The notes beneath the pieces were generated by a model. That model worked only from the letters and a program-made list of their open reading frames with translations. It was not told where the DNA came from and did not search any database. Shown piece by piece: positions 5,163 through 45,037 of a DNA stretch of 64,000 nucleotides. Position 1 is the stretch's first letter, and each line of letters begins with the position of its first letter. A program made the position numbers and the translations under genes. Origin of the DNA: Membranipora membranacea (taxonomy: Eukaryota; Bryozoa; Gymnolaemata; Cheilostomatida; Membraniporidae); the NCBI GenBank assembly GCA_914767715.1, contig OU612067.1, positions 434,001 through 498,000 of the forward strand, given 5' to 3'.

Positions 5163-5741
5163 GTGGCGATCCCGATTTGTTTGACATTTTATGTTATTTG
5201 AGAATTGATAATATTCAGTAGTAATATTATTTGTTGATGACCTTATCAGCTCATTATTGACGTCTACATGTTTACTGTACTTTAATTATTTGCTAGGATA
5301 CATCATTTGTTTGTAAATTTATCAATTCATTTATAAATAAAACAGCTGCAGAGGGATATTGTATTCCTAAAAGATTTGGAATTGATGCCCTCGCATTGTT
5401 TGCTTTTTATAATATTTCTATTAAGGTGAACCTCATTCAAAGGCAGCATAATGCATAGCAGCTAGTCAACAAGCTAGGTATTAAATTTGTGCACTGATGT
5501 ATTCGGAAAATCAATTTGATTATTCAATTCAAGCCTTTTAACACAATTAAAACCTTAAGATATACTCATACTGCTATAGTACCCAGCTTGATCAGGTATA
5601 AGCAGACTAATGAATAAACTGCTGAGCACACACCAATCAAGTAATATTGTTACAGCGGATACAAGTAGGTGATTGTGAATAAGAGGCTAATGAAACTAGA
5701 CCCCATATGGAGAGGCAGTCAACATTCGCTCCTACATGTCA

Positions 5742-6235
5742 GGACATACGCAAGGTACGTACACTCGAGGACATACACAAGGTACGTACACTCAGGGACA
5801 TACGTAAGGTACGTACACTCAGGGACATACATAAGGTACGTACAAGCATTGTAAGCATTTTAAGCATTTTGCAAATTTTTATAAGCATTTTGGAAAATTT
5901 AGGTTGGCAAGTCTGCAAGAAGACAACTCTACACACATATATACACCTAGTACAATGAACTTGTATACACTATACATACATTTAATGTACATTGTACATG
6001 CATGAATTGAATGCATGAAATTCGCGCCAAAAAGCGCGTGAAATTTGCAAATATTAAAATGAGCCACCCAAAAAGCCAAAATGAGCCGAGGTGGCTCATG
6101 AGCCATAGGTTGGGCACCCATGCTCTAGCACATACGCAAGGTACGTACACTCGAGTACATACGTAAGGTACGTACACTCGAGGACATATGTTAGGTATAA
6201 ACACTCAGGGACATACGCAAGGTACGTAAACTTGA
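5742..6235. repeat. Split 27-bp tandem array with an intervening repeat
   Basis: Four units of 27 bp (core GGACATACGCAAGGTACGTA) run from 5742 to about 5845, and about four more diverged units lie at 6125-6235. Between them is about 280 bp of unrelated sequence. It ends in an AT-rich part and a GAGCCACC...GGTGGCTC hairpin, followed by a segment (GCCATAGGTTGGGCACCCAT) of the kind found at ends of hAT-like non-autonomous elements. The simplest reading is an element inserted in a once continuous array. The array translates on both strands because 27 is a multiple of 3, but nothing suggests it is coding. Confidence 0.7.
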
Positions 6236-11256: not shown

Positions 11257-14036
11257 GATAATTGCTCACCAACTTTTCGGAGGAGTTGCTGATTTATGCG
11301 AAAACAGTTCACTGAAAAAATATAATAGTTTATATTATGGAGAAGCTGTGCTATCTATACAGAGAGATGAGTACATCAAGGGGTCGCTGCTGGCGGTTAT
11401 CGAGAGGGATATCGACATTGGCATTGAACCAAACTCCTCTCTTTATCGTATCCATGGTGACGGCTCTAGAGAGCTTTTAGCGGACACTCTTGCCACATGG
11501 CGTCAACAGATTCTCCCATTTTCGTCCATTACTTCGGTGTTTCAGCTTAGTGAATACTTTATTCTCATCACGGACAGGAAGTTTCAATGCATCTGCTCGT
11601 TGGACACATTGGGACATATTACGTATACATTCAGCGGGATCTGCTCTTACAACAGTTATTTCTCAGCTTCACTTTCTACTAGCGGTAGAGATGGTAATTA
11701 CTATAACGCCACCTACAGCCAACCAACGTCTGTCACAAGATCACCATTCAGTCCAGATATTCTACTCGTAACAGACGGGAACAAAATCAGAGAACTTGAT
11801 ATTAATACTCGCCACGTAACAACCGTGTATTTCCGTAATAGCACAAAGTTTTTAATTAATAATTTGTTGGGGAAGGATGGGCACTACATCGTAACGTCGA
11901 ATGAAGGCGTACACAGATATGACAGGGAATGGAAATTCAAAGGTCACATAACTCTCCATAAGGTCACCTTATTTAGAGGAATGGACAGATACAACAGCGC
12001 TGAACATTTTGAGATGTTAGATTTGGGTCAAGATCTTATTGTCTTATACTTCACTGATCATATTCGACATTATGATTATGCCAGGAGCCGTAATGTTGTA
12101 GGAATTTTCTCCATGGAGATAAAAGCGTTGGTTGCAGTGCTCTATGATGAGGATTATGTAGCTGAAAGCATACTCAAAGTTTACCCGAGAGCTCTAGCTT
12201 CCCTCACAGAACATAAACTTGGCTTCCTGCGTAGTAACCACGAGAATTCAACAATCTGCTCAATTATTCAAACGATTGAATTACAAGGTAAGGCATTATT
12301 AGCATGATATGATGATAAATATTAGGTATGAAATCAAATAAGTTAACACCATTAAGCTGAATTCTAAAGTCATCCTTATTGCTTATAACAAAAGGTTTGA
12401 TAAAGCCAAAGAAACATATAAAGTAACAATTAAAGTCAGTTTTACAGGCGGCAGTAAAATTGAAAAAAATGATTTGATTTAGTGATGGTCAAATACGGGT
12501 GATATAATGGGATTATTGTGACCTTAATCGGCTGTTTCTCTGTTATTAATGCCAGCAGCCCCCTGAAAGTTTGTACATCTACTAATTGTGACACGGTTTT
12601 TCAGAATTTGCAAGTTTCAAAGCCATATCGTTATTTTTTGATCATTTTCCAATTTGCTGGCAGCGTAACGGTTTTTTTATAATTCAAATAAGCCATGCTA
12701 AATACATCTTTGGCAGGAACTATGTAGTAGAATTAACTGTGAGCTTGAGCCTTAAAACTTTGTCCGGATCGCTGATAGTGACATTCCATTGACAATCTCA
12801 ACCACAACCCTGGGAACCAAATCATTACCAGCGTCACAGACAAACTTAAGTTAATCAGATAATCTCATATTGCACCAGAACAGCTTAGAACTTGGTTAAA
12901 GTTTCCGCAAACTATGAAAATCATTTCTGCTCCTTGGAATTTATGATACCAGGTTAGATAATAGGTTGGTATTTCCTTGTTGTATAGATTATTGTATGGT
13001 AGACGACTCCTCAGTGAAGTATCCTATCGGCTATATAACAGATAAGGCGTGCGGATATAACAGTGAATGTACCATTAACTTTACCACTCTGGATGTTAAC
13101 TGGGAAAACACAACGACTGATGTATATGAAAATTGCACGGGCTCTAATAATGATACAGTCACATCTACGGGCTCTAATAAAGATACAGTAACATCTACGG
13201 GCTCTAATAATGATACAGTAACATCCACGGGCTCTAATAATGATACAGTCACATCTACGGGCTCTTATAATGATACAGTAACATCTACAGGCTCTAATAA
13301 TGATACAGTAACATCCACGGGCTCTAATAATGATACAGTAACATCCACGGGCTCTAATAATGATAGAGTCACATCCACGGGCTCTAATAATGATACAGTC
13401 ACATCCATGCAGTTATCCCCCCTCTCTATGGTCACTTCTGAGAAACCATCGGACAGTATCACAGCCGTCACGGTAGTTAGACAAATGAATAACAACACAA
13501 CAGAAATCTTAGATGGAAGTCAGTTTAGCCACACTAGTTATAACAATACTGTCAGTACACACCCCTCAGACGCATCTCCAGTCACCACTCACCAACCCGC
13601 TATCAGGCGATTAGACCCTGACAAGTTGAGAAATGAAACATTGATGACACCACCAGTTACCTCAGCATGGGGAGATATAAGCACTGAGGTGATTGTCTCG
13701 TTGTCCTGTACTGGTTTATTAGCTATCGTCCTTCTAATCATAGCATTCACCTTATGTCGACGCAAGGTAAGCAAGCATGTGTCAAACAATACAAACTACG
13801 CACTGAACAACCGACGATCACTGCCCAGTACACCTGAAATTCTACATGATGATGACAACGAGTACAATGTTATCAATGTGAGTGACGGTCAACCTGAGAT
13901 GGCTAATTTAGATGATCATGTGTATGACATAGCAGATATCGACATCACTGAAACAAATCTAGACTTATCATCAGAAGGGATTTATGTTATAGAGCCTCAA
14001 CATTTAGAGGCAGCGGGAGTAATCTCACATATGTGA
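11257..14036 (+). CDS. NHL-propeller, mucin-repeat, single-pass membrane receptor
   Basis: Two exons are visible: 11257-12287 (acceptor CTCTCTTAGCAG, phase 1; donor CAAG|GTAAGG, phase 1) and 12988-14036 (acceptor GTTGTATAG). The first encodes beta-propeller blades. The clearest NHL signature is GRDGNYYNATYSQPTSV followed by DILLVTDGNKIRELD. The second exon starts with a cysteine-containing segment, then nine 10-residue repeats (TGSNNDTVTS, each with an NDT glycosylation sequon), and a Ser/Thr/Asn-rich stalk. A transmembrane helix follows (VIVSLSCTGLLAIVLLIIAF, then CRRK), with a roughly 95-residue acidic tail holding tyrosines in EYNVI, VYDIA and IYVIE. The start with signal peptide must lie in an upstream exon I could not find. 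Likely a cell-surface adhesion or signalling receptor; the ligand is unknown. Confidence 0.75.
13137..13406 (+). repeat. Coding 30-bp tandem repeat (9 units) in the receptor stalk
   Basis: Nine in-frame 30-bp units, each encoding TGSNNDTVTS with small changes (an N to K, an N to Y, a T to R). Each intact unit carries one NDT N-glycosylation sequon and several Ser/Thr residues for O-glycosylation. Near-identity at the DNA level implies recent expansion and likely length polymorphism. Confidence 0.9.
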
Positions 14037-15793: not shown

Positions 15794-18700
15794 TTAATAC
15801 CTGCAGAATAGTATGATCCCCATACTCACATATTCTATGTCCAAGATGAATTGGCGCCGGACAGAACATTCACATTTGATATTGTTTGAGTTATTTCCTC
15901 CATAACAGCAGGACAGAAAACCCTGTTTCTTCTTTCCCTTCTCAGTCTCCTCATCATCATCTCCTGCACATAAAACAAACTCCACACTACTACACCACCA
16001 CCACCATCACCATCATCATGGAGGGCATGTGCGGCAGATTATTTTGGCGACTTTTTAACAGGTCATTCATATTTGCCTCTATGGCAACACAATTATCGCT
16101 GTTGACATATTTGTGCAGCAATCTACTGATTTATATGGTATAAACTGTTGCCAGTATTATGTTAACAGCAGCTAGCTATCATCTCTAACAGCCACCCACC
16201 TTCGTCAGCCAGCTCAGAGCTGTAACCATCCTTAGAATCCACATATGAGTTATCATCGGTGTCAGCGTTCATGTCTAATATTCTCTCATCCCGGGCTGCG
16301 GATATGGCACAGATATACACAAATCTCAACTGTCCTCTGGTCTGTATCAAACCTGGTCTGAATATATACACAAATCTCAACTGTCCTCTAGTCTGTATCA
16401 AACCTGGTCTGAATATATACACAAATCTCAACTGTCCTCTAGTCTGTATCAAACCTGGTCTGAATATATACACAAATCTCAACTGTCCTCTAGTCTGTAT
16501 CAAACCTGGTCTGAATATATACACAAATCTCAACTGTCCTCTAGTCTGTATCAAACCTGGTCTGAATATATACACAAATCTCAACTGTCCTCTAGTCTGT
16601 ATCAAACCTGGTCTGAATATATACACAAATCTCAACTGTCCTCTAGTCTGTATCAAACCTGGTCTGAATATATACACAAATCTCAACTGTCCTCTAGTCT
16701 GTATCAAACCTGGTCTGAATATATACACAAATCTCAACTGTCCTCTGGTCTGTATCAAACCTGGTCTGAATATATACACAAATCTCAACTGTCCTCTAGT
16801 CTGTATCAAACCTGACTGAATATATACACAAATCTCAACTGTCCTCTAGTTTGTATCAAACCTGGTCTGAATATATACACAAATCTCAACTGTCCTCTGG
16901 TCTGTATCAAACCTGGTCTGAATATATACACAAATCTCAACTGTCCTCTAGTCTGTATCAAACCTGGTCTAAATATATACACAAATCTCAACTGTCCTCT
17001 AGTCTGTATCAAACCTGGTCTGAATATATACACAAATTTCAACTGTCCTCTAGTCTGTATCAAACCTGGTCTGAATATATACACAAATCTCAACTGTCCT
17101 CTGGTCTGTATCAAACCTGGTCTGAATATATACACAAATCTCAACTGTCCTCTAGTCTGTATCAAACCTGGTCTGAATATATACACAAATCTCAACTGTC
17201 CTCTGGTCTGTATCAAGCCTGGTCTGAATATATACACAAATCTCAACTGTCCTCTAGTCTGTATCAAACCTGGTCTGAATATATACACAAATCTCAACTG
17301 TCCTCTGGTCTGTATCAAACCTGGTCTGAATATATACACAAATCTCAACTGTCCTCTAGTCTGTATCAAGCCTGGTCTGAATATATACACAAATCTCAAC
17401 TGTCCTCTGGTCTGTATCAAACCTGGTCTGAATATACACACAAATCTCAACTGTCCTCTAGTCTGTATCAAACCTGGTCTGAATATATACACAAATCTCA
17501 ACTGTCCTCTAGTCTGTATCAAACTGGTCTAAATATTAGGGTAATGGCAGAGGTTGTGGGCCAACTATAAGTAAATAGTAGCTGCACATACGGACACATA
17601 CCATATATGGTTTGGTAGTTTGGGGTCATACGACATCATATAATAGATTAAAATACAAAAAAAAAGATTTCCAGTTACCCAGATACTAGATTACCATCAA
17701 TGAGTATCTGATAGGCATAAGTGTTACCTACCTGTATCCACGTACATCCACAACAAGCTGCTTTATGTCTATATCAATATTCTGTTGTTCTTTAATCTGA
17801 GAAATCAGATCAAGAAATGACTATACTATATGTATAATAAGCTGAACAAGGCGTCAGGTGAAGTTGTACCCTAGAAGAGTAAATGTCAGCTAGAGTTTAG
17901 TTGAGCTAGTCAAAGGTGACTCAATTTTAGCTAGCATAAAGTTTAGCTAGGTGAGATGGGAGCATACATAAAGCAAAGAGGGTGAATAATGAAAACATTA
18001 GCTTAATCAATTAATGGCTAACATTTCCTCCTGTGTGTATTTCACTCCTCTAGGGTATAAGAAGATCCATCTCATTTCTCCTGAGGAGAGGAGAGGAGTA
18101 CGAGTTACGACACAGCATTACGAGACACAAAGTCACCTTTTTGGCATGAATCACAATTGACCCTACCTTCCGCTTTATGTTACAAATAATATACAGATGT
18201 GATCAGAAAAGACCAAGATTGTTGGAAAGGAGACTCTCTTCATATACATCTGATAATGTAGTAGCAGATAATGGACATGGAGTGACGAGACCTAAGCCAC
18301 ACTAAAGAAGCTCATCATTCACAACAGGTTTGACCCATCTTGAAAGCATTTACCCCCCCCCCCCCTCTTATACTGATTATTGTCATTAGAGGAGAGATCA
18401 TCTCAGAACACAGAAATTTTGGATAGAGTAATGGATGAATGTATAATGTGATTCACAAGGCAAATCGTGTTATCCACAGATAAAGGTTCCAGTAATTATT
18501 TTCAAAAACATTTTGCACACAACAAAGCTTTAGATTACTGACCAGATTGATTAATGAGTCGATGACAAGAAAGGCACCAGACCTGCCGATGCCAGCACTG
18601 CAGTGTATACACACAGGACCCGCTGAACCTGGCTTATCCATCATTTTTAGGTCTCTTGCCATGTGCAGAAACTGAATAAACTTGAGCGGGTGTGGCACAC

Positions 18701-20998
18701 CAAAATCAGGCCACTCGACATACTGTAGGTGAATCAGCCGCCTACCCTTCTTAGTCTGACAAAGAGAGAGAAGATATACGCCAGAATAACACAGCAATCA
18801 GAGGGCAAAGACAAGCTTGAGACATTTTTCCAATTCCACCAAATTTTAGGCTAAGCTAAATGACTGCTAGACTATGCTAGATGATAGTTTAAAAGTCTCA
18901 GGGCTTGAAAATTAATTCGTTTAGATGGTAAAGAATGCAAGAACCAGTCTTGTCTAATGGTTATCCCAAAGGCAGTAAGTTGAGTTTGCCTGCCTTCTGG
19001 GTCACTCCCAGTTCAATTCATCTGTTGGTAGTGGAAAGCAAACCAAAATACAAGCGCATTGGAGCGAACTTGAGTTAAGCTGGGCAAATAAACTCTATTC
19101 GGCAAAGCACATTTCAAATACAATTCAGGATTATTGATTGAAAAAATATGATTTAGAATTCGGGCACAACCGTGCATGATACAGTCAGAGGAAGTCTCTC
19201 TTATCTGGTTCTCCTGAGTTACCTGGTGATGGAAGATTGCATAATCTCGTATGACATAAGCACCCAGATCCTTCCTGTCAGTCAGCCTGACACCGATCCC
19301 TATATCCTCATATTCTACACTCTCCTCCTGAGGACACGTCACAGGGTCAGGGAAATATGCCGCACACTTATCCTGTGAGAGAAAGTCTGATGGTTAGTAT
19401 ATACCTGTGGCGTATCGGACGCTGTCTGTTCTAGGTCCTGGTTTTTGACATAACTTCATTTTTCTTATTACCTGTCCCAGGACAGTCTGATAATGGGCCT
19501 ACTATAACTAGTCATTAAAAATGCCACAGCTTTGATTAGTGAGCTTTTCTTGTCTTCATATATACAGACTGATGTCTCCTCTAACTCAATACTGTTCATG
19601 TATGAGATTATTGTTGCATCAGCAGTAGTGAGGCATCACAGTAAATGATACAAACATTCTATTCCTGATAAACCAGTCTGTCCCCACCCATCCATACACC
19701 CGCCCACCCATCCGTCCACCCACGACAGCCTGCCCAGGCTACCACCAATGAACTAGTTCATTGCTACCACTTGATCCTACTCAAAATATCACTAATAAAA
19801 CAGAACGCAGTGAAGTTGTCAGCACTACAAAAAGGAGATTGTAACTCCCAAAACAATGGCATGTGAGGCTTGTAACAGTAACTGTCATATTATTGTTATG
19901 AGATGAATGTGACCAAAGCATATTGGAGTGTAAGAGCTCCTACAGAGAGCTGGTGTATATAATGTGCTGAACATCCAGCATACACGGCCTCAGAGCTAGA
20001 TTTATAAATTTGGTGACTTGGCCGGCAATGCCAGCTCTGACATTTTGACTTCCTGCAACAAAATATATCTTGAGATAGAGAAGCATTGATGCAGGGTAAA
20101 TCTCAAAGGAGCTTTCCATGCTTACCTTTCCTTCCTCCACCAGTTTGTTGAGCATGATGATACCTGGACACTTCTGCTGCCAGATCATGAGCCAGAAGTG
20201 ACTGATTGTACGTTCAAGCGGCCCCTGAAATATAGAGCTAGGTCTTATACTCAGTGTACATATGTCAGTATTGTAAAGTGAAAAGATCTTGCGCTGTGCT
20301 CCAGCGGTACTTCACTACGTCCTTTGATTGACATCTATTTTTTTGGAATATCAATGATCCAAACCACAGTGATCATGCTTGCCAATTTATACCGCATGTT
20401 TTTGGACACCATTTCCGTTCTAATAATTATTAACCCTAAGCCTCAAAACCTTAGCACCTACATTATAGAGTGAATGAGAAAAAAAACATACATTCATACC
20501 TGGGACACGATATATTCGCGTTTAGCGGAAGGAACTTTTACTTTGCTCGCATTAATATAATCTATCTCAAAGTCCTGCAGCTTAATTCTGTTCCTATCAT
20601 CTGAAGGCAGTAAAATAAAGTGTATTACTAACTGTAAGAATAATGTCCATAAAAATGTGGGTATAAGAAGTGTAGTAAATTCAATATTGGACAGGGAGAG
20701 CAAGTTTTATGTTATAGATTTCTTGAGAACGAAAGATACATGAGATACAAAATACCAGACAACTATCAGAGCACTATCAGTTCTCAGTTTGAAAGAAACA
20801 GCCAAAAAATATTGTTCGTTCATTTTGGAATGAGGCTCCATCTGACATAAATGTGTTTTTGGCAGACATACATGGTACAACATTAGGATATCTGTTGAGA
20901 GAGTTGTGTTTTCGAGCCACTTTTTTACCGTACGGGTACAATGCCAATGCTGACTCCTTCATACGCTTTAAATCGATAAGACAATAATTAACAGACAT
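15794..20998 (-). CDS. PTPN1/2-like: Non-receptor protein tyrosine phosphatase, PTPN1/PTPN2 type
   Basis: Eight exons with continuous phase: 20872-20998, 20500-20600, 20126-20224, 19223-19372, 18543-18755, 17732-17796, 16200-16357, 15794-15963; 360 residues. Order of motifs: NRYPNVVPYD (phosphotyrosine-loop region, equivalent to NRY), DYINAS, QGPL, WPDFGVP (WPD loop, Asp about 176), HCSAGIGRSG (P-loop, catalytic Cys about 211, Arg about 217), and GLIQTRGQLRF (Q-loop, Gln about 257 and 261). Spacing and the DIDIK...RGYR segment fit the PTP1B/TC-PTP subtype, whose members dephosphorylate receptor kinases and JAK/STAT components. The tail is acidic then lysine-rich (KGKKKQGF) and lacks a clear hydrophobic ER anchor. 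The start is the first ATG in the exon with the NRY motif; an earlier exon is possible. The start of exon 7 is embedded in a 51-bp array with many alternative acceptors; the listed exon uses the acceptor nearest the downstream exon. Confidence 0.85.
16310..17545 (-). repeat. 51-bp array made of the PTP Q-loop exon start plus its splice acceptor
   Basis: About 24 head-to-tail units. Read on the minus strand, each unit holds an intron-like end (TGTGTATATATTCAG) followed by about 37 bp encoding RPGLIQTRGQLRF, the phosphatase Q-loop. The acceptor phase in every unit matches the phase-2 donor of exon 6. Nine acceptors, at 16357 and every 51 bp up to 16765, read in frame into the rest of exon 7. 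A one-base loss near 16815 and another in the 5'-most unit near 17525 cause stops for acceptors further upstream. The plus-strand open frames across the array are artefacts of the 51-bp period. Confidence 0.85.
19000..19025 (+). repeat. Possible tRNA-like SINE fragment (weak)
   Basis: Between about 18955 and 19025 the sequence has an AATGGTTATCCC motif resembling an A box and CCAGTTCAATTC resembling a B box, spaced like a tRNA head. No body or tail is recognised. It lies in a phosphatase intron. Confidence 0.2.
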
Positions 20999-22542
20999 CG
21001 TATTATGTGAGGGAGATGTAGCATGCTGAGTTTACTATCTATAAACGTCGCTACTGGAGCGCTGGTCTGACATCCTGAATCTCAAGTACAATGTGATGGA
21101 GTATCTTTCATAACTAATGACTTATCAATTAGTGAATTCAACTTTTGCTGTTATTTTATCACACTTTGTGGAAGGGTCGCCTGAAATTAATTGATTGTTT
21201 GTTTGCCTTTTCCTATGTAATACCAATAAAATACCCAGATTTTGTTTTAAACCAAGGATTACTAACTAATTGCCTGATTAGCTGAATCTAAACATTTGAC
21301 AGTGAAACTCGCTATTGTTAAAATATCATGGTTACAAAAGTGTTTCAATAATTTTTCATTATCATGTTTGACTATCAGAAGAATAGTGTACCCGATACGC
21401 AGATCCCCATCTATCCCCAGACTCAATACGATCAAACTCTTCTTTGATCATCTGAAAGCAAGAGAGCAAAGTAACTACACTTCTTTGAATATGATTGGCA
21501 GCCGTTTTATTTCACATGTAACTCTGATCTACACACGAATCTTGACAAAGGTGCATCTATACTTCTGTGGCTGGTGATTTGGTATACTCATGTGTTGCTT
21601 TGATGAGAATTACGGGAGTGGTATACATAACCGGTCTTAAAAACTTTTTTTGTGTTAACTGCATCACACAAACTTTCTACGTTTCAGCGCAGAAGAAAAA
21701 AGAATTTTCTTGTGTTAAGTTAAACTCCATAGATTTTTCAAAACCTCATATGGTGACTGGATCAGGTCATGTTAATAAAGTGTGGAATGTTTTAGAAGAT
21801 TGGGATTCATCTGGTTTTTTTTATAGGTAAACCAAGGAGTTAGAGACTAGGTAAACACAACTTACATCAGATAGACAGCAGTATACCAAAGAAGCGGACA
21901 AGTGATGATAGCATGCAGAAATACTGCAGATGAGACTGAACTGGCAACCTCTGGTGTGGGTCCACAGTTTTAAATTTTGTTGATTGGTGCTTTGTCAACT
22001 CCACCCCTGCAGTAAACTGGAGAAAAAAATTGTATTGCAGTGATTGGCCTTAGATAGGAAACCAATCACTTATCACCAAGGTGTAACAGTCCTTGTATGC
22101 AGGTCACTCACCAATGAACTATTATCTTATTCATTGAACACTGTGGAAAGAATTTTGATTGTTGTCATGCAGTGTATACTGAAAGTGAAACTAAAATGAG
22201 TAAGAACTTCCACTTTGTTGTTTACTCAAAGTGAAACTACAAATTAGTGAAAATGATTCAATCCTCATTGTGATACTACAGCTGTTTGGCTTGTTTTAGT
22301 CTCTGTTTACCATTGTGAGGTATCTTTGTTTCTTTTATGATATATTATCATTGTAAATTCAACAGTTGAGCGGTTCAACTGGCTTCTATTTGTTCCCACA
22401 TAGCTATCCTATGTTTGCTCATTTAAATTTATTTCGACAAATCATAATTTAAGACATAGTAAACAACAACTCAGCTGTGCATGTGTAGTTCTGCAGAAAA
22501 CCAGTCAAAACAAGTCTAAAACTGAAATTCTGCACTCAAATC
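20999..22542. other. Divergent intergenic region between phosphatase and GCSH
   Basis: The two flanking genes point away from each other, so promoters of both should lie here. No element, RNA gene or convincing open frame was recognised. Open frames at 21296-21830 are AT-rich and featureless. Confidence 0.5.
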
Positions 22543-32400: not shown

Positions 32401-35400
32401 ACTCCTAAACTAGTCAAATTTTTGACTAAAATGCCCCTTTGCTGTACAAAACGAGAAGTATAAATATGTGAAAACAGTACTGAGACTGAAATATTTTTCC
32501 TGCTAGGGGCATCCTCCAAAGCCTTGGTGAGGGCACTATGCATTTATTTTGAACCAAATAAAATTTATCATGTTGGAGAAGGGGTATAATAAGAATGCCC
32601 ATCATGCAGTTTTCCAGAGGCAGGCTGTAAACTCAATATTCTTTTTGCCAGGCTATCTTCAAATGAAATATATATTGAGTGAACAATTGCATGGGAACTC
32701 CCTACAAACATATCCTCTTTGTATATTCCCAAGTTCCATATCAAAACCTCTACTCGAATTGAAATAAATGCCTCATGAATACAGAGGAAAATCCAACCAT
32801 TTATGGTTTTTTGCCTGATATATTTCTGCACCAGATTTAGCGTAGTAATATAAGTCTCTAAAATCCAGTCATTTTGGTGCATTTTACAACAGTTCACAAG
32901 CTGACTTATTAATTCCTGACTGTTATTATAGAACTTTCCTTCTCTAGTACTTGAAATTCATGTCAAGGCTTGTTCCTAGGATTAATATCACAAATTAATT
33001 TTATTGGGACTACTTTGCGCTGCCAATCCTGGCTTGATACGATAAATGGTTGTGAGGCGTCTGAGCCAGATGCTCCCAGTTATTGACAGCTCCTATTCTT
33101 TTGCATGGGCAGCGGTGGCTTCAATTTCATAAATTGCCATCACATACATAAGAAATTAAATTAAAGACAATTGAGGGTTTGGAAATTGCTAAACAAGGAA
33201 TAGCTTCAATTAGAATGAAAAATCAAGGAAATCGGACCAGTAGTTCTCAAGTAAGTATCCTAGGCGAGGCATGACCTTAATTGGATACTTTCTTTATATT
33301 GCAGGTAATGTTATCTCCTCCATGCTGTAGGCGGTGAAAACTTAGTAGAATTTTCATATCATATCTCCTTTTACAGGTAGAACTGAGCACTTATCTAAGG
33401 GCTTTACTGGTACCGTTACCTCAGCCTCCAGTATAGCCCGAGCTTTCTACAAAGGATTGTGGGCTTATGATGGTTGGAACAATCTCAACTATGTAACTGA
33501 GGAGATTAAAAACCCTAAGAGGTAATGGGCTCTATCCTAACTCTGTACTCTGTACTTTGTTTCCTATCTATAAACTTGTTAAATTTCATGATGAGATGGT
33601 CTGAAACGCGGTTTGCGGCTAATCGAAGACATGCTGAAAGGGTTCACATTTCCATGGCATGTTTTCATATTCACACTCAAAAAACCATTGATTTTATTGA
33701 TTTTATTGATTCAATTGTGTTACTGTTTGATTACTTGTAGAAATGTACCACTGGCGATTATAATATCGATACCTCTGGTTACTGTGGTGTATATATTAGT
33801 AAACATTGCATACTTTACAGCCTTATCACCTGCTGAACTACTCGCCTCACCAGCTGTTGCAGTGGTGAGAATTCATACAAAAAATAATCCTTTAATCATA
33901 AGCTATATACCCTAAGCCTGTAGTCAAGACCCAATATATGGAGAGATTGAGGCCAACTGTGCCTACATGCTATATCAATTATGCACCCTTCGTTTTATAT
34001 CCATACGAAACCTGTAGCTGGTTTTTAAGAGTCTTATCTCTGCTGTATGCCATGATTTTGGCGATGAGTACCAGTTTGGTATGTTGTTTGTCTAGCCTGG
34101 TTGTTGTAAATGTGAAGATTGTCTGTGTACTTGTGTTGAGACGATTATTATGTATTCTGATAACATCCACATAACTCACCCCCTTTCCGTTTGAATGTAG
34201 GATTGGGCTAAGATAGTGATACCATATTCAGCTGCAGCTGTAGCTATCACAGTATGTGTGGCTTTCTCTACCTTTGGTGCTGCTAACGGAACTCTCATCT
34301 CGGGATCAAGGTAAGCGTATCTACAGTCCTGTTATTATATGTGGATAAGAGTGTACATGGGTATATAAGTTACTTTGGTATATTGACATCATAGATACAT
34401 AGACATCTAAGTTATGTTGGTATATGGGCAGCTCTCTGTGTTTTTAAGTAGCGATATTTAATATTTGGAAAAACGAGTCAGGTTTTATGTTTTATTTTGA
34501 TTTAATGTGTTTTCACAGTTTAGAGATTGACGAAACATATAATATATTTGTTATGTTTACACATTGTAGATTGGTGTATGCGGCAGCTCGAGGTGGCCAT
34601 CTTGTCTCTCTGTTATCTATGATTGATGTGAAATATAACAGCCCTTCCACTTCTATCGTATTCACAGTGAGTTATAACACCAATGTATTTTTTCTAAGCG
34701 CCTATTAATTTGTCCGATTGTTCATTTCCATTTTGTTTTGTCACATACTGTCGCTGGTAAACCAGACGCCCATCAAGAAACAAGAGACTGAAATCGATTC
34801 AACTTTTACCTGTATGTTGTATCTTGATTTAGATTTCAAACAAATATTTAATTCAATTGGTTTCCCTTTTAAAACCTGGTGAGATGTTAGTGGTAAATTA
34901 CATCTTCTCCCAGCTGATAGTCATCTCTGTTACAGTGTGTGATAGCTGTACTGATGGTTATACCCAGTGATATATTCACCCTCATCGACTTCTTCAGTTT
35001 CTCAGCTTGGATATTTTATGGCCTGACTATGGTGTCACTTCTTATCATGAGGTGGAAAGAACCAAACCTCGAGCGACCTTTCAAGGTAATATCAATCAAA
35101 AGCAAGGTCATATAGAGCTAGTGTCAGTAAACACATGATTATATTATAGCTGACTTGATCCCAGATCCAAAGTCCCAATATCAAAACACACAATGCGAGG
35201 CATCACTGATGGCATCAGTGTACTTTACATGATCCTACAAAAAATCCTTGTGTGCGAGGCAAGCTTTGAAAAGCTTTATTTAATAACTGTTTTAATTTAA
35301 TGATGTTTAGTACAGTAGACATATGTATGTATCTGTTTACAGTGTCCGATCTGGATACCTATTAGCGTACTGCTAGCCTCAGTGTACCTGGTGATCGCTC

Positions 35401-36094
35401 CTATCATAGTCTGAGAGGCTCACACTATCTCCTATACAGAGTTATATTGTTGTTGTTGTAGTGCCCGATATGGATACCTATAGTAGTACTGTTAGCCTCA
35501 GTGTACCTGGTGATTGCTCCTATCGCTGACGCTCCGGATATACTCTATTTATACGCTGCTCTCTTCATGCTAGCCGGACTCATCTTCTACTTCCCTCTGG
35601 TGGCCTTCAAGAAAAGTATCAAACCTTTCGGTAAGTTGTTTTCATCACTCCATGATGATCGCTCGTTCTGAAACATTTCAATGAATACAGGTTGAGTTTC
35701 ATTGTCAATCCAGCTAGTTAGGAGTCAGGAGCTGTCTGATTGGTGTGGAGGACGTTGATCATATCACAGCGTGGGGAGTTGTTTCTGATTTGGCACTGGC
35801 TTTTTATCTCAGTCAATTGTGTTTAGATTCAGACCTAAAAATACTCGGTGTTGAACAAACCTATGAACCCCACAATGGCAGGGAAAGGTTTTGGGTCACA
35901 TACACGAGCACACCACTCCGCACATTGAAACTGTTTGGGTTGTTTTGTAATTAATGAACGTTCAGGATTTTTTAGACTCTAGACTATCAGTCTTTAGCAC
36001 ATAATGGTTTGTAATTTTTGTTATAGATCATGTGACATTGTTTGTACAGAAGTTAATGCTGTTAGCTTCACCAGAGTCAGAGCCTGAGGACTGA
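29434..36094 (+). CDS. SLC7A9-like: Amino-acid transporter light chain, SLC7A9 (b0,+AT)-like, copy A
   Basis: Twelve exons with continuous phase: 29434-29490, 29867-29990, 30757-30858, 31096-31359, 31644-31769, 33377-33521, 33741-33864, 34201-34310, 34570-34666, 34936-35085, 35462-35630, 36027-36094; 511 residues, the usual size for this 12-helix APC-family transporter. Signatures: [20 protein letters not shown] (helix 1 unwound substrate site), [32 protein letters not shown] (helix 6), [10 protein letters not shown] (helix 8). A cysteine in FFDECGPP near residue 167 sits where the heavy-chain disulfide forms in b0,+AT and LATs, suggesting pairing with an SLC3-type partner. Likely exchanges neutral and basic amino acids or cystine at the plasma membrane. 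Exon 11 is preceded by a truncated extra copy of its 5' part (35343). Introns carry several elements. Part of a tandem pair with the gene at 38104-45037. Confidence 0.92.
31952..33276. mobile_element. 1.3-kb TTAA-flanked inverted-repeat element in transporter A intron 5
   Basis: The ends are perfect inverted repeats of 14 bp (GGTCATGCCTCGCC), each directly flanked by TTAA (31948-31951 and 33277-33280). TTAA duplications are typical of piggyBac and Kolobok elements. No transposase frame is present, so it is non-autonomous. It contains a second, nested inverted-repeat element. Confidence 0.7.
32324..32536. mobile_element. 213-bp TA-flanked MITE nested in the TTAA element
   Basis: Inverted ends GTGCCCTCAC (10 bp exact) flanked by TA on both sides (32322-32323, 32537-32538), as for Tc1/mariner-type MITEs. 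It lies wholly inside the larger TTAA element, so it inserted later. Confidence 0.55.
35343..35461 (+). pseudogene. Truncated extra copy of exon 11 start in transporter A
   Basis: After an acceptor (TATCTGTTTACAG) the frame reads [20 protein letters not shown], then IIV and a stop. It copies the first about 70 bp of exon 11 with about 10% difference. It is followed by an intron-like stretch (CTCCTATACAGAGTTATATT and on) ending in the acceptor of the functional exon at 35462. If spliced in, it would truncate the transporter before its last helix and tail. It may be an alternative terminal exon or a dead relic. Confidence 0.7.
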
Positions 36095-41100: not shown

Positions 41101-44100
41101 TCATCTATAAATTTATCTGATTGCAGGAACATACCCCTAGCGATATTAATCTCCATACCTCTGGTCACAGTGGTGTATATTTTCGTAAACATTGCATACT
41201 TTACAGCCTTATCACCTGCTGAACTACTCGCCTCACCAGCTGTCGCAGTGGTGAGTTCTCATCTTATATAATTTCTGATTACTGATATCAAGCATTTATG
41301 TTGGATGCTCTTTCATTACTCAACTACGCAGTATAATTACTTTCCTAAAACATTGCCTAACTGTCCCTGCCTCATAACTTTTCCTCTGTGTTGCTCTAGA
41401 ATATTGCAATACTTCGCATCATAAAGTTGCTTTTAGCTCAGTATTCTGTCTGTGATGTGCGTTTTGGTAACTAGAGTGGTTCATGTATTTTTGAGAGTTG
41501 TCCCACTACGGTTCGGGTAAAAGCAACTCCTAATGTGTGTGAAAATTACTGTATAAAGTGGTATTTTTGAACAGGTTACATGAAAGTAGAACTTTTTTTA
41601 AGAGCTCTTTCATAGTAACATGTTTCGACTTTAGGATTGGGCTAAGATAGTGATACCATATTCAGCTGCAGCTGTAGCTATCACAGTATGTGTGGCTTTC
41701 TCTACCTTTGGTGCTGCTAACGGAACTCTCATCTCTGGATCAAGGTACCAAATAAGTTAACTATTATTTAACATTCAAACTGATACATTGATACTAGTGA
41801 TAGACAGGTGCTGGGGTAACATTCATCAAATTCATCACACAGTCAGTGTCTTTATTGAATGGTTTGCATAGAGGAGCTCAAAGCTGATAAAGTCAGTGTT
41901 TATTCTCCATTGTAGATTGTATTACTCAGCGGCTCGAGGCTGATAAAGTCAGTGTTTATTCTCCGTTATAGATTGTATTACTCAGCAGCCCGAGGCTGAT
42001 AAAGTCAGTGTTTATTCTGCGTTATAGATTGTATTACTCTGTGGCCCGAGGCTGATAAAGTCAGTGTTTATTGTCCGTTATAGATTGTATTACTCAGCGG
42101 CTCGAGGCGGACATCTTATATCTCTCTTATCTATGATTGATGTAAACCATCACAGCCCTTCCACTTCTGTCGTGTTTACTGTAAGTTAACTATAAGCCTC
42201 TCAGCCACAGCGGGCTAAGACAACTCTAAACCTGCATTGACACTACGGGTTTTCCCGTAAGATTTCTCCTTCAGATTTTCCCATAAGATATTTCTTTTAT
42301 ATTAGCTACCAATAGGCAAATTCGCGACCTGCTCCACTGTATTAAATTGATTATTAATAATTGTATTGGGATGTCCAACATTATTTTGAGGTGTATCTTA
42401 ACAGTGGTCTCCTTATTAAGTTGTTGTAACTTTATTGCAGAAACTGAGTACTGTAACCTGTTAATAAAAGTGACGTTTTAAAATTGGTACTTGTAACATC
42501 AAATTGTTGTGAACGATTTAGAAGCAAATACAAAATAGAATAAAGCAACTTAATTATCTTGACTTACAAATTTTGACACCTTCACATAAGTATGGTGATT
42601 CCTGGTTGGTGAGCTATAATATTGGTGCTGTTGTAGGTACTGAACCTATTAATAAAATGGCATACAATGACTACGTACAAAAACTAGGTCACAACAAATT
42701 TATGTGGCAATTGCATACATGTTGAATACAATTAACTTCAGATTAATTGTGCGTTTATAAATTTGAAGATACATGTAAAAACAATAAAATAAAAAAAATG
42801 AACTTACGTATTCAGCCTTAGACTTAAGATATGTGTAATATGGTGGTGTAATGATACGCTAATTCTCCTGTAGTGTAGTAAATATTGAGGAGAAAATTTT
42901 CCCAAACAGGTGGGCTTGACTATAAAACTGATTTCTTTCTACATTTTGACGTCTTAGTTGGGTGATGGCTAAATGACTAATGCTATAAGAATACTGTATG
43001 ATATGCGACAAGAATAGATTGTTTAGACTTGGCTACAGCTTGAGATAATATTGGGTATATAATGAGCTAGGACATAAAATTCACATCATGCTGAGAAAAA
43101 GTGACATCAAAATCTATGACCTTGCTTGAATATTGGCCTCTATTATGTAACATTAATTTAGGTGAGGCAAAAACTGGGTGCATCACGTGTATACCGATAC
43201 AATAATCAGTGTAAAATCCCATACGCAGTTGAGAACTACTGCGTGGATTTTACACTGATTATTAATAATCAATTTAATACAGTGGAGCAGATCGGCGAAT
43301 TTGCCTAATTAAGAGCAACAAAAAATCTGAATTTAGTGGCAATGTCACAAAGCGTAGATTTTTGGTTGCTCCCAATGATAGCTTATATAAAAGCAATTTC
43401 TGACCAAACAACCTGAAAATCTGACAGAGAATCTGCAGTGAAAATGCAGCTTCCTGCCTTGCAGTTCTTATGATGTGTTCAGTTAGAGATTCAGATAACG
43501 GGTTTCAAGCTTTATGGTCCATTTTTTATGCCTGAATGAACTTCAATAGTTTTAAGACTCATAACGCAGACAGCAGTCATACTTGTGATTCGTTTAACTA
43601 TATTTATATATTCTCTTTCAGTGTATTATAGCTATCGTCATGGTGATACCCAGTGATATTTTCACCCTCATCGATTTCTTCAGTTTCTCAGCTTGGATAT
43701 TCTACGGCTTGACGATGGTTGCCCTTCTCATTATGAGATGGAAAGAGCCAAACCTCGAACGGCCTTTCAAGGTATGTCTGGTTTTATCCAAGCCTTGAGT
43801 TTTAAGTCAGTATCAGCATGTGTTAAGACACAAAATTGAAGTGCTGTTGTACAGTTAATTGCTCAGATGCTCAATGTGGGGAATTTGAGTAGTGAATTAG
43901 GCACAAGGGGCAGGTGCCTTGAAGATTGCGTCGTTGCACTAATGACAATGAGTTGATCAAAATCGAACCAACCTGCGCTAGTTTGGCATGAAAGTGATGG
44001 GGTGTGCCATTGTTGCATTGAAACAATGAAGGGTTGGCAGCCTCTCTGGTTGCGCAACAGTGAAATCATACAGATTATGTCAAATACCGAATCTGACAAA

Positions 44101-45037
44101 ACGCACTGAGGGCTAGAATTAATGGTATGAGATGCTCATCAACAAGCAGGGGTATTAAAATTTATGAGGCAGCATCCTGTTGACTGTTTTCTCCTATACA
44201 GAGATATATTGTTGTTGTCTGGGAGGCTCAGATCACCTCCTATACAGAGTTATATTGTTGTTGTCTGGAGGCTCAGACTACCTCCTATACAGAGTTATAA
44301 AGTTGTTGTCTGGGAGGCTCAGACTGTCTCCTATACAGAGTTATATTGTTGTTGTTGTAGTGCCCGATATGGATACCTATAGTAGTACTGTTAGCCTCAG
44401 TGTACCTGGTGATTGCTCCTATCATAGACGATCCTGATATACTATATCTCTACTGTACTCTCTTCATGTTAGCTGGTCTCATCTTCTACTTCCCTCTGGT
44501 GGCTTTCAAAAAGAGCATTAAACCTTTCGGTAAGATACTCAATAGTCTTAGGAATCTGCAGTTTTTAATTCTCAAGTTATCAAATTCCAAGCTGCCAAAT
44601 TAGATATAGTGAGGACCTTTTTTAACCACAGCAGTTTGTGAAAAAATTTTTCACCAACTGGCCACTGATGTCACTGATAATACATGGGTGAACTGTAGCC
44701 TGTCCGCGGTGGGCGCCCTCCCATTCCTGACAGCCTGCCCAGGCTATGAACTGACTGTGCTACGATTTGAATTCATATTGTTGAGATACTGTTGGCAGGG
44801 CAAGGGTGTAGAATATGTTTGTGTCCTCTGATTTGGTGGCACAGGAATATTACAAACCAAAGGGGATTAGCATGTTCTTTGATCGGTGAAGCACACAGGA
44901 GATATCTGTAGTTATATTTTGTCTGCTTGTGTAACAGAGACTTATATATCAGTTTTCCATATTTTACAGATTACGTAACGTTATTCATACAGAAGCTTAT
45001 GTTGGTCGCTCCTACTGACTCTGAACCAGAGGAATAA
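38104..45037 (+). CDS. SLC7A9-like: Amino-acid transporter light chain, SLC7A9 (b0,+AT)-like, copy B
   Basis: Twelve exons: 38104-38166, 38483-38606, 38754-38855, 39396-39659, 40209-40334, 40652-40796, 41127-41250, 41635-41744, 42084-42180, 43622-43771, 44361-44529, 44970-45037; 513 residues. Every exon after the first has exactly the same length and phase as in copy A, and the first differs by two codons ([21 protein letters not shown]-type N-terminus), so the pair arose by tandem duplication. Substrate-site motif [10 protein letters not shown], helix 6 [13 protein letters not shown] and the heavy-chain cysteine (FFDECGPP) are all present. The acidic C-terminus is DSEPEE. Exon 9 is preceded by three decoy copies of its acceptor and first 25 bases. 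Intron 9 carries a 1.2-kb inverted-repeat element. The acceptor of exon 11 abuts a 46-bp tandem repeat. Predicted plasma-membrane amino-acid exchanger like its neighbour. Confidence 0.92.
41880..42109 (+). repeat. 56-bp tandem duplication across the exon 9 splice acceptor
   Basis: Units of exactly 56 bp begin (after AG) at 41916, 41972, 42028 and 42084. Each has an intron end (TTTATTCTCCGTTATAG or variant) and the exon start encoding RLYYSAARG. In the first three copies this is followed by TGA; only the fourth continues into the real exon. A weaker fifth remnant precedes 41916. Confidence 0.9.
42241..43442. mobile_element. 1.2-kb non-autonomous element with long inverted ends, intron 9 of transporter B
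   Basis: The two ends are inverted copies over 100 bp or more with gaps. Both share GGCAAATTCGC, TGCTCCACTGTATTAAATTG and CTTTTATAT...AGCTA blocks, and both begin CACT. A near-perfect hairpin at 43201-43264 (arms AATAATCAGTGTAAAATCC and an inner ACGCAGT) sits within it. No coding capacity. Exact borders and target duplication are uncertain. Confidence 0.65.
44191..44360 (+). repeat. 46-bp tandem repeat abutting the exon 11 acceptor of transporter B
   Basis: Four units starting at 44191, 44237, 44282 and 44328 (CTCCTATACAGAGTTATATT, then a TTG run and GGAGGCTCAG). Only the last merges into GTTGTTGTTGTAG and the exon. A related single unit precedes the functional exon 11 of transporter A. Confidence 0.85.

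Follow-up and report, generated by a model that had tools for sequence, protein, structure and literature searches.

Tandem repeats that run across intron-exon boundaries have been named 'mirages' in amphioxus, where the relevant passages of two papers describe them in Adh3, the globins, TnC and PGBD5 (PMC3087553, PMC3902484). In the amphioxus globin gene BflGb6, the repeated segment comprises the 3' end of an intron and the 5' part of an exon and is present in 6 or 3 units depending on the haplotype, with units of 150-160 bp that share 81-100% identity and are described as undergoing concerted evolution (PMC3087553). The authors of that work judged regular splicing to be undisturbed, yet considered that the extra signals could act as cryptic sites (PMC3087553). 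For Adh3, units of 10-72 bp are given (PMC3087553) and somatic instability has been reported (PMC3087553, PMC3902484). The Adh and TnC mirages are said to yield no aberrant mRNAs, and the PGBD5 repeats, whose copies are imperfect, were suggested to be non-interfering (PMC3902484). Internal minisatellites in human duplicated genes are likewise described, in the part of the paper that deals with them, as altering exon-intron structure, in some cases through cryptic splice sites (PMC2812944). A search of the open-licence literature for mirages outside amphioxus, in a bryozoan or in a tyrosine phosphatase (PTP) gene returned none.

The array described here lies in a PTP gene on chromosome 3 (C3) of the bryozoan Membranipora membranacea, within the 64,000-nucleotide stretch of DNA that we analysed as a whole and refer to as the window. 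With a probability of roughly 80%, we consider it to be a mirage-type intronic minisatellite, in which the acceptor at 16357 is most likely the one spliced to the preceding exon (exon 7), so that an ordinary PTP is made.

The host gene

The gene was modelled by hand and comprises the following features.

15830..21451, minus strand: PTP gene, nine exons (E1-E9); hand model with uncertain start and C-terminal end
21451-21392, 20965-20872, 20600-20500, 20224-20126 and 19372-19223, minus strand: exons E1-E5; hand model
18755-18543, 17796-17732, 16357-16200 and 15963-15830, minus strand: exons E6-E9; hand model
17732..17796, minus strand: exon 7, ending in phase 2, donor gtaggt
16200..16357, minus strand: exon 8, with the Q-loop PGLIQTRGQLRF, starting at the exon-proximal acceptor; from the model and the domain match

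Joined without any extra array unit, the nine exons give one uninterrupted protein, residues 41-279 of which match PF00102 (Pfam, E 1.4e-66). In alignments with PDB entries, residues 3-283 align with PTP1B chains and residues 42-281 with receptor-type PTP chains. The model carries the P-loop HCSAGIGRSG, the WPDFG motif and two Q-loop glutamines, as does a classical PTP catalytic domain. The predicted product is a tyrosine phosphatase whose catalytic domain is intact when the extra units are absent. Four weak inverted-repeat pairs are also found within the gene.

A 51-bp unit across the exon 8 acceptor

Between exon 7 (17796-17732) and exon 8 (from 16357), the intron contains a tandem array.

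16313..17536, minus strand: 51-bp array of 24 units, each with about 45 nt of exon start and 6-11 nt of intron end with its AG; from TRF and unit extraction
17479..17528, minus strand: unit 1 (50 nt), beside the intron end that precedes the array, CCCTAATATTTAG; its one-base loss puts a stop at the fourth codon
16766..16815, minus strand: unit 15 (50 nt), one-base loss
16358..16765, minus strand: eight in-frame upstream units, with acceptors 16765-16408

TRF places the array at 16313-17536 with a period of 51, 24.0 copies and 97% matches; 22 units are 51 bp long and two are 50. An AG precedes all 24 units, and the intron end reads exactly TATATATTCAG in 21 of them, the departures being at 17528 (which ends AATATTTAG), 17427 and 16968. 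The first exon bases of the 24 acceptors fall at 17528, from 17478 to 16866 in steps of 51, at 16815, and from 16765 to 16357, again in steps of 51. The original prediction of an exon start amplified about 24-fold together with its acceptor is therefore borne out, each unit holding a 3' splice site and the start of the Q-loop exon. That exon start was put at about 37 bases and turns out longer, since identity between unit and exon 8 spans 45 nt except for position 19, which is variable inside the array too. What is left of the unit is a 6-11 nt intron part, its range being set by a short homology at the joint; such a homology had been proposed, and it is ATAT, common to the exon and to the intron end before unit 1, rather than the whole GTATAT. 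What precedes unit 1, CCATTACCCTAATATTTAG, has the appearance of the original intron end and would place the duplication right at the boundary, as drawn in the hand gene model.

Variation among the units is ordered; the variants that tell units apart are T7C, G16A, T19C, G33A, A42G and C49T. Seven neighbours, units 17-23 with acceptors 16714-16408, do not differ from the consensus. T19C marks units 3, 5, 7, 9, 13, 16 and 24, thus alternating across units 2-9. Both the identical block and the alternating pattern would fit a recent expansion in blocks. Taken together, the array shows a boundary-spanning unit, splice signals kept in many units and homogenised units, three of the features of a mirage. 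Chance is ruled out as the source of a 24-fold repeat of a 51-mer. That the repeated segment spans a junction is less remarkable than the repetition itself: the gene has 16 junctions in 5.6 kb (4.4 kb once the array is subtracted), and by hand calculation about 14-18% of 51-bp segments picked at random from it would span one.

The sequence comes from the tzMemMemb1.1 HiFi assembly (reads ERR6406215), for which the genome note gives 339.4 Mb and a mitochondrion of 14.7 kb (PMC10290214). Poly-A RNA-seq (ERR6464929) and an alternate haplotype (GCA_914767555.1) are also listed there (PMC10290214). A DNA search of the 339-Mb genome, which passes over simple repeats and very common words, finds the array at one place. 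HiFi reads are comfortably longer than the 1.2-kb array, which makes an assembly artefact unlikely; with the single genomic place, the ordered unit variants and 0 N in the surrounding 264 kb all speaking against it, and nothing found in its favour, we regard this explanation as scarcely credible. Two further observations concern the assembly at large. In C17 (10331 bases), open frames recur about 5.9 kb apart, as if the contig held one unit almost twice over. C18 is the mitochondrial genome (14.74 kb), whose genes occupy both strands and leave little space for tRNAs; Rfam finds two tRNAs at the gathering score, and ARAGORN none on the one stretch searched. COX1 aligns well when translated with genetic code 5.

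Reading frames and acceptor strength

Read in the phase of exon 7, nine of the 24 acceptors (16357-16765) run without a stop to 16200, where exon 8 ends, since a unit of 51, being divisible by 3, keeps the frame open. The other 15 meet a stop, namely 17528, those from 17478 to 16866, where the one-base loss in unit 15 shifts the frame, and 16815, which stops likewise. In these respects the gene model agrees with what had been foreseen: the upstream exon (numbered 6 in the original prediction, 7 in our model) ends in phase 2 with matching acceptors, and nine acceptors from 16357 to 16765 are open in steps of 51. The predicted one-base loss near 16815 is real as well, and a second one, in unit 1 (17528), had been missed.

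Two long open frames translate the unit as a repeat of 17 residues, as might be expected if the entire array were coding and kept as a repeat domain. The breaks of the frame in units 1 and 15 and the stop at the fourth codon behind the first acceptor contradict coding across the full array in this assembly, and we consider such a domain very improbable.

A second way in which the array could reach the protein is splicing to several of the nine acceptors that lie in frame, giving PTPs with 0-8 extra 17-residue peptides at the Q-loop. The nine open acceptors, equivalent in frame and identical in local acceptor sequence, would permit this. The variants bear on it too: six distinct point variants occur among units 2-23, four of them synonymous and two not, and with 17 of the 51 possible transitions in the unit being synonymous, the binomial p for at least 4 of 6 is about 0.10 (by hand). 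Such an excess may hint, weakly, at a frame in use; at this p value it neither firmly indicates coding constraint nor disproves it. Two one-base losses in 24 units, on the other hand, point to an array frame without strict constraint. Moreover, the open ladder needs no special cause: by a hand estimate, about one in four such arrays should combine a unit length divisible by 3 with stop-free intron-derived codons, which are few. The two sister acceptor arrays described below (56 and 31 bp) lack this combination. The PTP structure would also put the extra units between the pre-Q-loop helix and the Q-loop, inside a compact catalytic domain. On balance, we find the production of such a protein series quite unlikely.

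Local signal strength does not favour 16357, which scores no higher than its fellows in the array. With a small matrix built from 15 neighbouring acceptors, 20 of the 24 array acceptors, 16357 included, score 0.8 bits, equal to the 74th percentile of the 4095 AGs on the same strand of the window; the leave-one-out mean of the 15 true sites is 5.0 bits (range -1.5 to 12.7). The highest array scores belong to 17427 (3.8 bits) and 17528 (2.9 bits).

Sister arrays in the surrounding 264 kb

The neighbourhood scanned, C3:334001-598000, is a contiguous 264 kb with 0 N and contains 76 minisatellites with a period of at least 10 bp. Besides the PTP array, three more arrays span a splice junction there: one acceptor array in an amino-acid permease gene, and an acceptor and a donor array on sequence resembling tuberin. 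They are listed here with related permease loci, in window coordinates unless marked C3.

41876..42108, plus strand: acceptor array, 56 bp x 4.2, over an amino-acid permease exon; from TRF and reading frames
34570..34666, plus strand: paralogous permease exon with a single acceptor, the state without an array; read by eye
35343..35525, plus strand: two copies, 119 bp apart, of an acceptor plus exon start (CPIWIPI) in a permease paralogue; end of the second approximate
44191..44355, plus strand: 46 bp x 3.6 array whose end lies 5 nt short of a permease exon (from 44361), which it abuts and does not span
C3:404707-412333: acceptor array, 31 bp x 246, 7.6 kb, over a Rap_GAP exon of a tuberin-like gene
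C3:419282-419402: donor array, 30 bp x 4, of exon end plus GTAAGT donor; in frame

The host of the 56-bp array matches AA_permease_2 when two exons are joined (Pfam, E 2.9e-7). Its acceptors lie at 41916, 41972, 42028 and 42084, and the last alone gives an open exon, the other three of the four leading to a stop after nine codons. The single acceptor in the paralogous exon indicates that such arrays come or go. The permease exon from 44361 was called by eye and has no Pfam match of its own.

The 31-bp array is far more extreme. Its exon matches Rap_GAP (Pfam, E 5.7e-11), and with the upstream exon taken, by eye, to end in phase 0, 211 of its 213 exact acceptors stop at codon 22 and one at codon 18, the last being open for 180 nt into the exon. 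The exon at the 30-bp donor array scores 17.9 bits against Tuberin, below the cut-off of 27, and this array probably belongs to the same tuberin-like gene. Being in frame, it counts against the mirage-type reading that we prefer.

Since all acceptors except the last stop in both the permease and the tuberin-like array, only the exon-proximal acceptor can yield a full product there. This suggests that in the sister arrays the exon-proximal acceptor would be the productive one and the remainder intron. If these two genes are expressed normally, as we assume, the spliceosome would pass over up to 212 like upstream acceptors.

The same stops could instead have a function of their own, with the copies competing as acceptors: upstream ones would send transcripts into stop frames and decay, so that array length would set the dose of enzyme. 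As 15 of the 24 PTP acceptors and 212 of 213 in the tuberin-like gene lead to stops, a dose effect would recur. Against this, the Adh and TnC mirages are said, in the text bearing on them, to be without aberrant mRNA (PMC3902484), and we judge tuning of this kind to be rather unlikely. Broader still is the view that splice-spanning minisatellites are recurrent in this genome and at the same time serve as built-in controls of dose or isoform through acceptor competition, array length (24 here, at least 213 in the tuberin-like gene) determining the yield of functional mRNA or the choice of PTP isoform; taken as a whole, it is unlikely.

Other minisatellites in the region and elsewhere

Among arrays with a period of at least 20 and at least 3 copies, 4 of the 18 in the 264 kb span a junction (4 of 19 if the one at offset 5742 is counted as 27 bp x 3.9), a tally that rests for the most part on visual reading of the host exons and for which the flanks of all but the array at window offset -63608 were viewed. 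Enrichment of minisatellites at splice junctions is on these figures suggestive only, and we make no claim of it. By eye, a junction was absent at window offsets -79401, -58563, 5742, 6123, 10715, 93787, 97230, 101508, 111713, 126079, 145722 and 152548. Arrays at offsets 96201, -16068, -19659 and -32154 end a few tens of bases from a likely splice site and do not span it, and a 75 bp x 2 array at offset -1978 may be a duplicated donor.

Two other repeats in the window deserve mention. At 13136-13407, a coding repeat of 30 bp x 9 (TGSNNDTVTS) sits in a 372-codon open frame that by eye has the look of a stalked membrane protein; Pfam at 0.01 returned no match for this frame. At 5741-5844 and 6123-6232, two arrays of one 27-bp unit lie about 280 bp apart, with a donor-like AAGGTACGTA in most units.

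A genome-wide search for the PTP family (at least 158 matches, with 150 of 374 candidates scored) was used only to pick three extra loci. Another 45 kb, from five loci outside the region, contained 9 small arrays of at most 3.2 copies, and none of the five arrays whose flanks were viewed spans a junction. The class of junction arrays may thus be patchy across the genome.

Discussion

Given that in both sister acceptor arrays the final acceptor alone is open, we take the PTP array to be of the same nature, its unit length being divisible by three by coincidence. In the scenario suggested by the anatomy of the unit, a single duplication, probably at the ATAT homology, would have copied a short stretch that bridges intron and exon, and slippage or unequal exchange would then have spread the duplicate to 24 copies, leaving the array as the 3' part of a now longer intron. 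Under exon definition, the acceptor beside the real exon (16357) would win with the help of the enhancers and donor of that exon, and the 23 upstream copies would be skipped, the next in-frame ones possibly being used as noise. The original prediction had offered a ladder of enzymes or the tuning of output by competing acceptors; both are unsupported and unlikely, the sister acceptor arrays needing their exon-proximal site and the PTP frame being open by virtue of its unit length.

The recurrence of the class near the window, together with one extreme array that has over 200 acceptors, is a more interesting result than the PTP array itself. Where all acceptors but the final one lead to stops (212 of 213 in the tuberin-like gene), an array amounts to a natural experiment on 3' splice-site choice: these genes would be broken if the spliceosome simply took the first AG downstream of the branch site, whereas under exon definition they would not. 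Junction arrays may also bear on trouble in gene finding, although linking them to the 'particular gene structures' mentioned in a passage of the genome note (PMC10290214) is a guess.

The original prediction knew of no earlier case of this arrangement in a PTP; as a kind it does have precedents, in the mirages over intron-exon boundaries already described in amphioxus (PMC3087553, PMC3902484). The arrangement itself is known; what is new is its recurrence in a bryozoan genome, with four junction arrays in 264 kb of a lophotrochozoan, whereas the published mirages that we found in the open-licence literature are all from amphioxus. Introns are reportedly also gained through tandem duplication across splice sites, a route associated with Rogers and with Gao and Lynch; such duplications likewise place splice-site DNA in tandem within a gene, whereas the PTP array lengthens an existing intron. 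The human internal repeats sit, in the part of the study concerned, within exons or introns (PMC2812944), in contrast to the amplified boundary seen here. The mirages of Adh3, TnC and PGBD5, as far as the two amphioxus papers describe them in the passages concerned, resemble the PTP array as short tandem repeats over splice sites and differ from it in genes and phylum (PMC3087553, PMC3902484). Closest is BflGb6, with which, going by the description of that gene, the PTP array shares a tandem repeat of intron end and exon start, splice signals in many copies and homogenised units; unlike this chordate globin, with its 3-6 copies of 150-160 bp (PMC3087553), it has 24 copies of a 51-bp unit, divisible by 3, in a bryozoan phosphatase.
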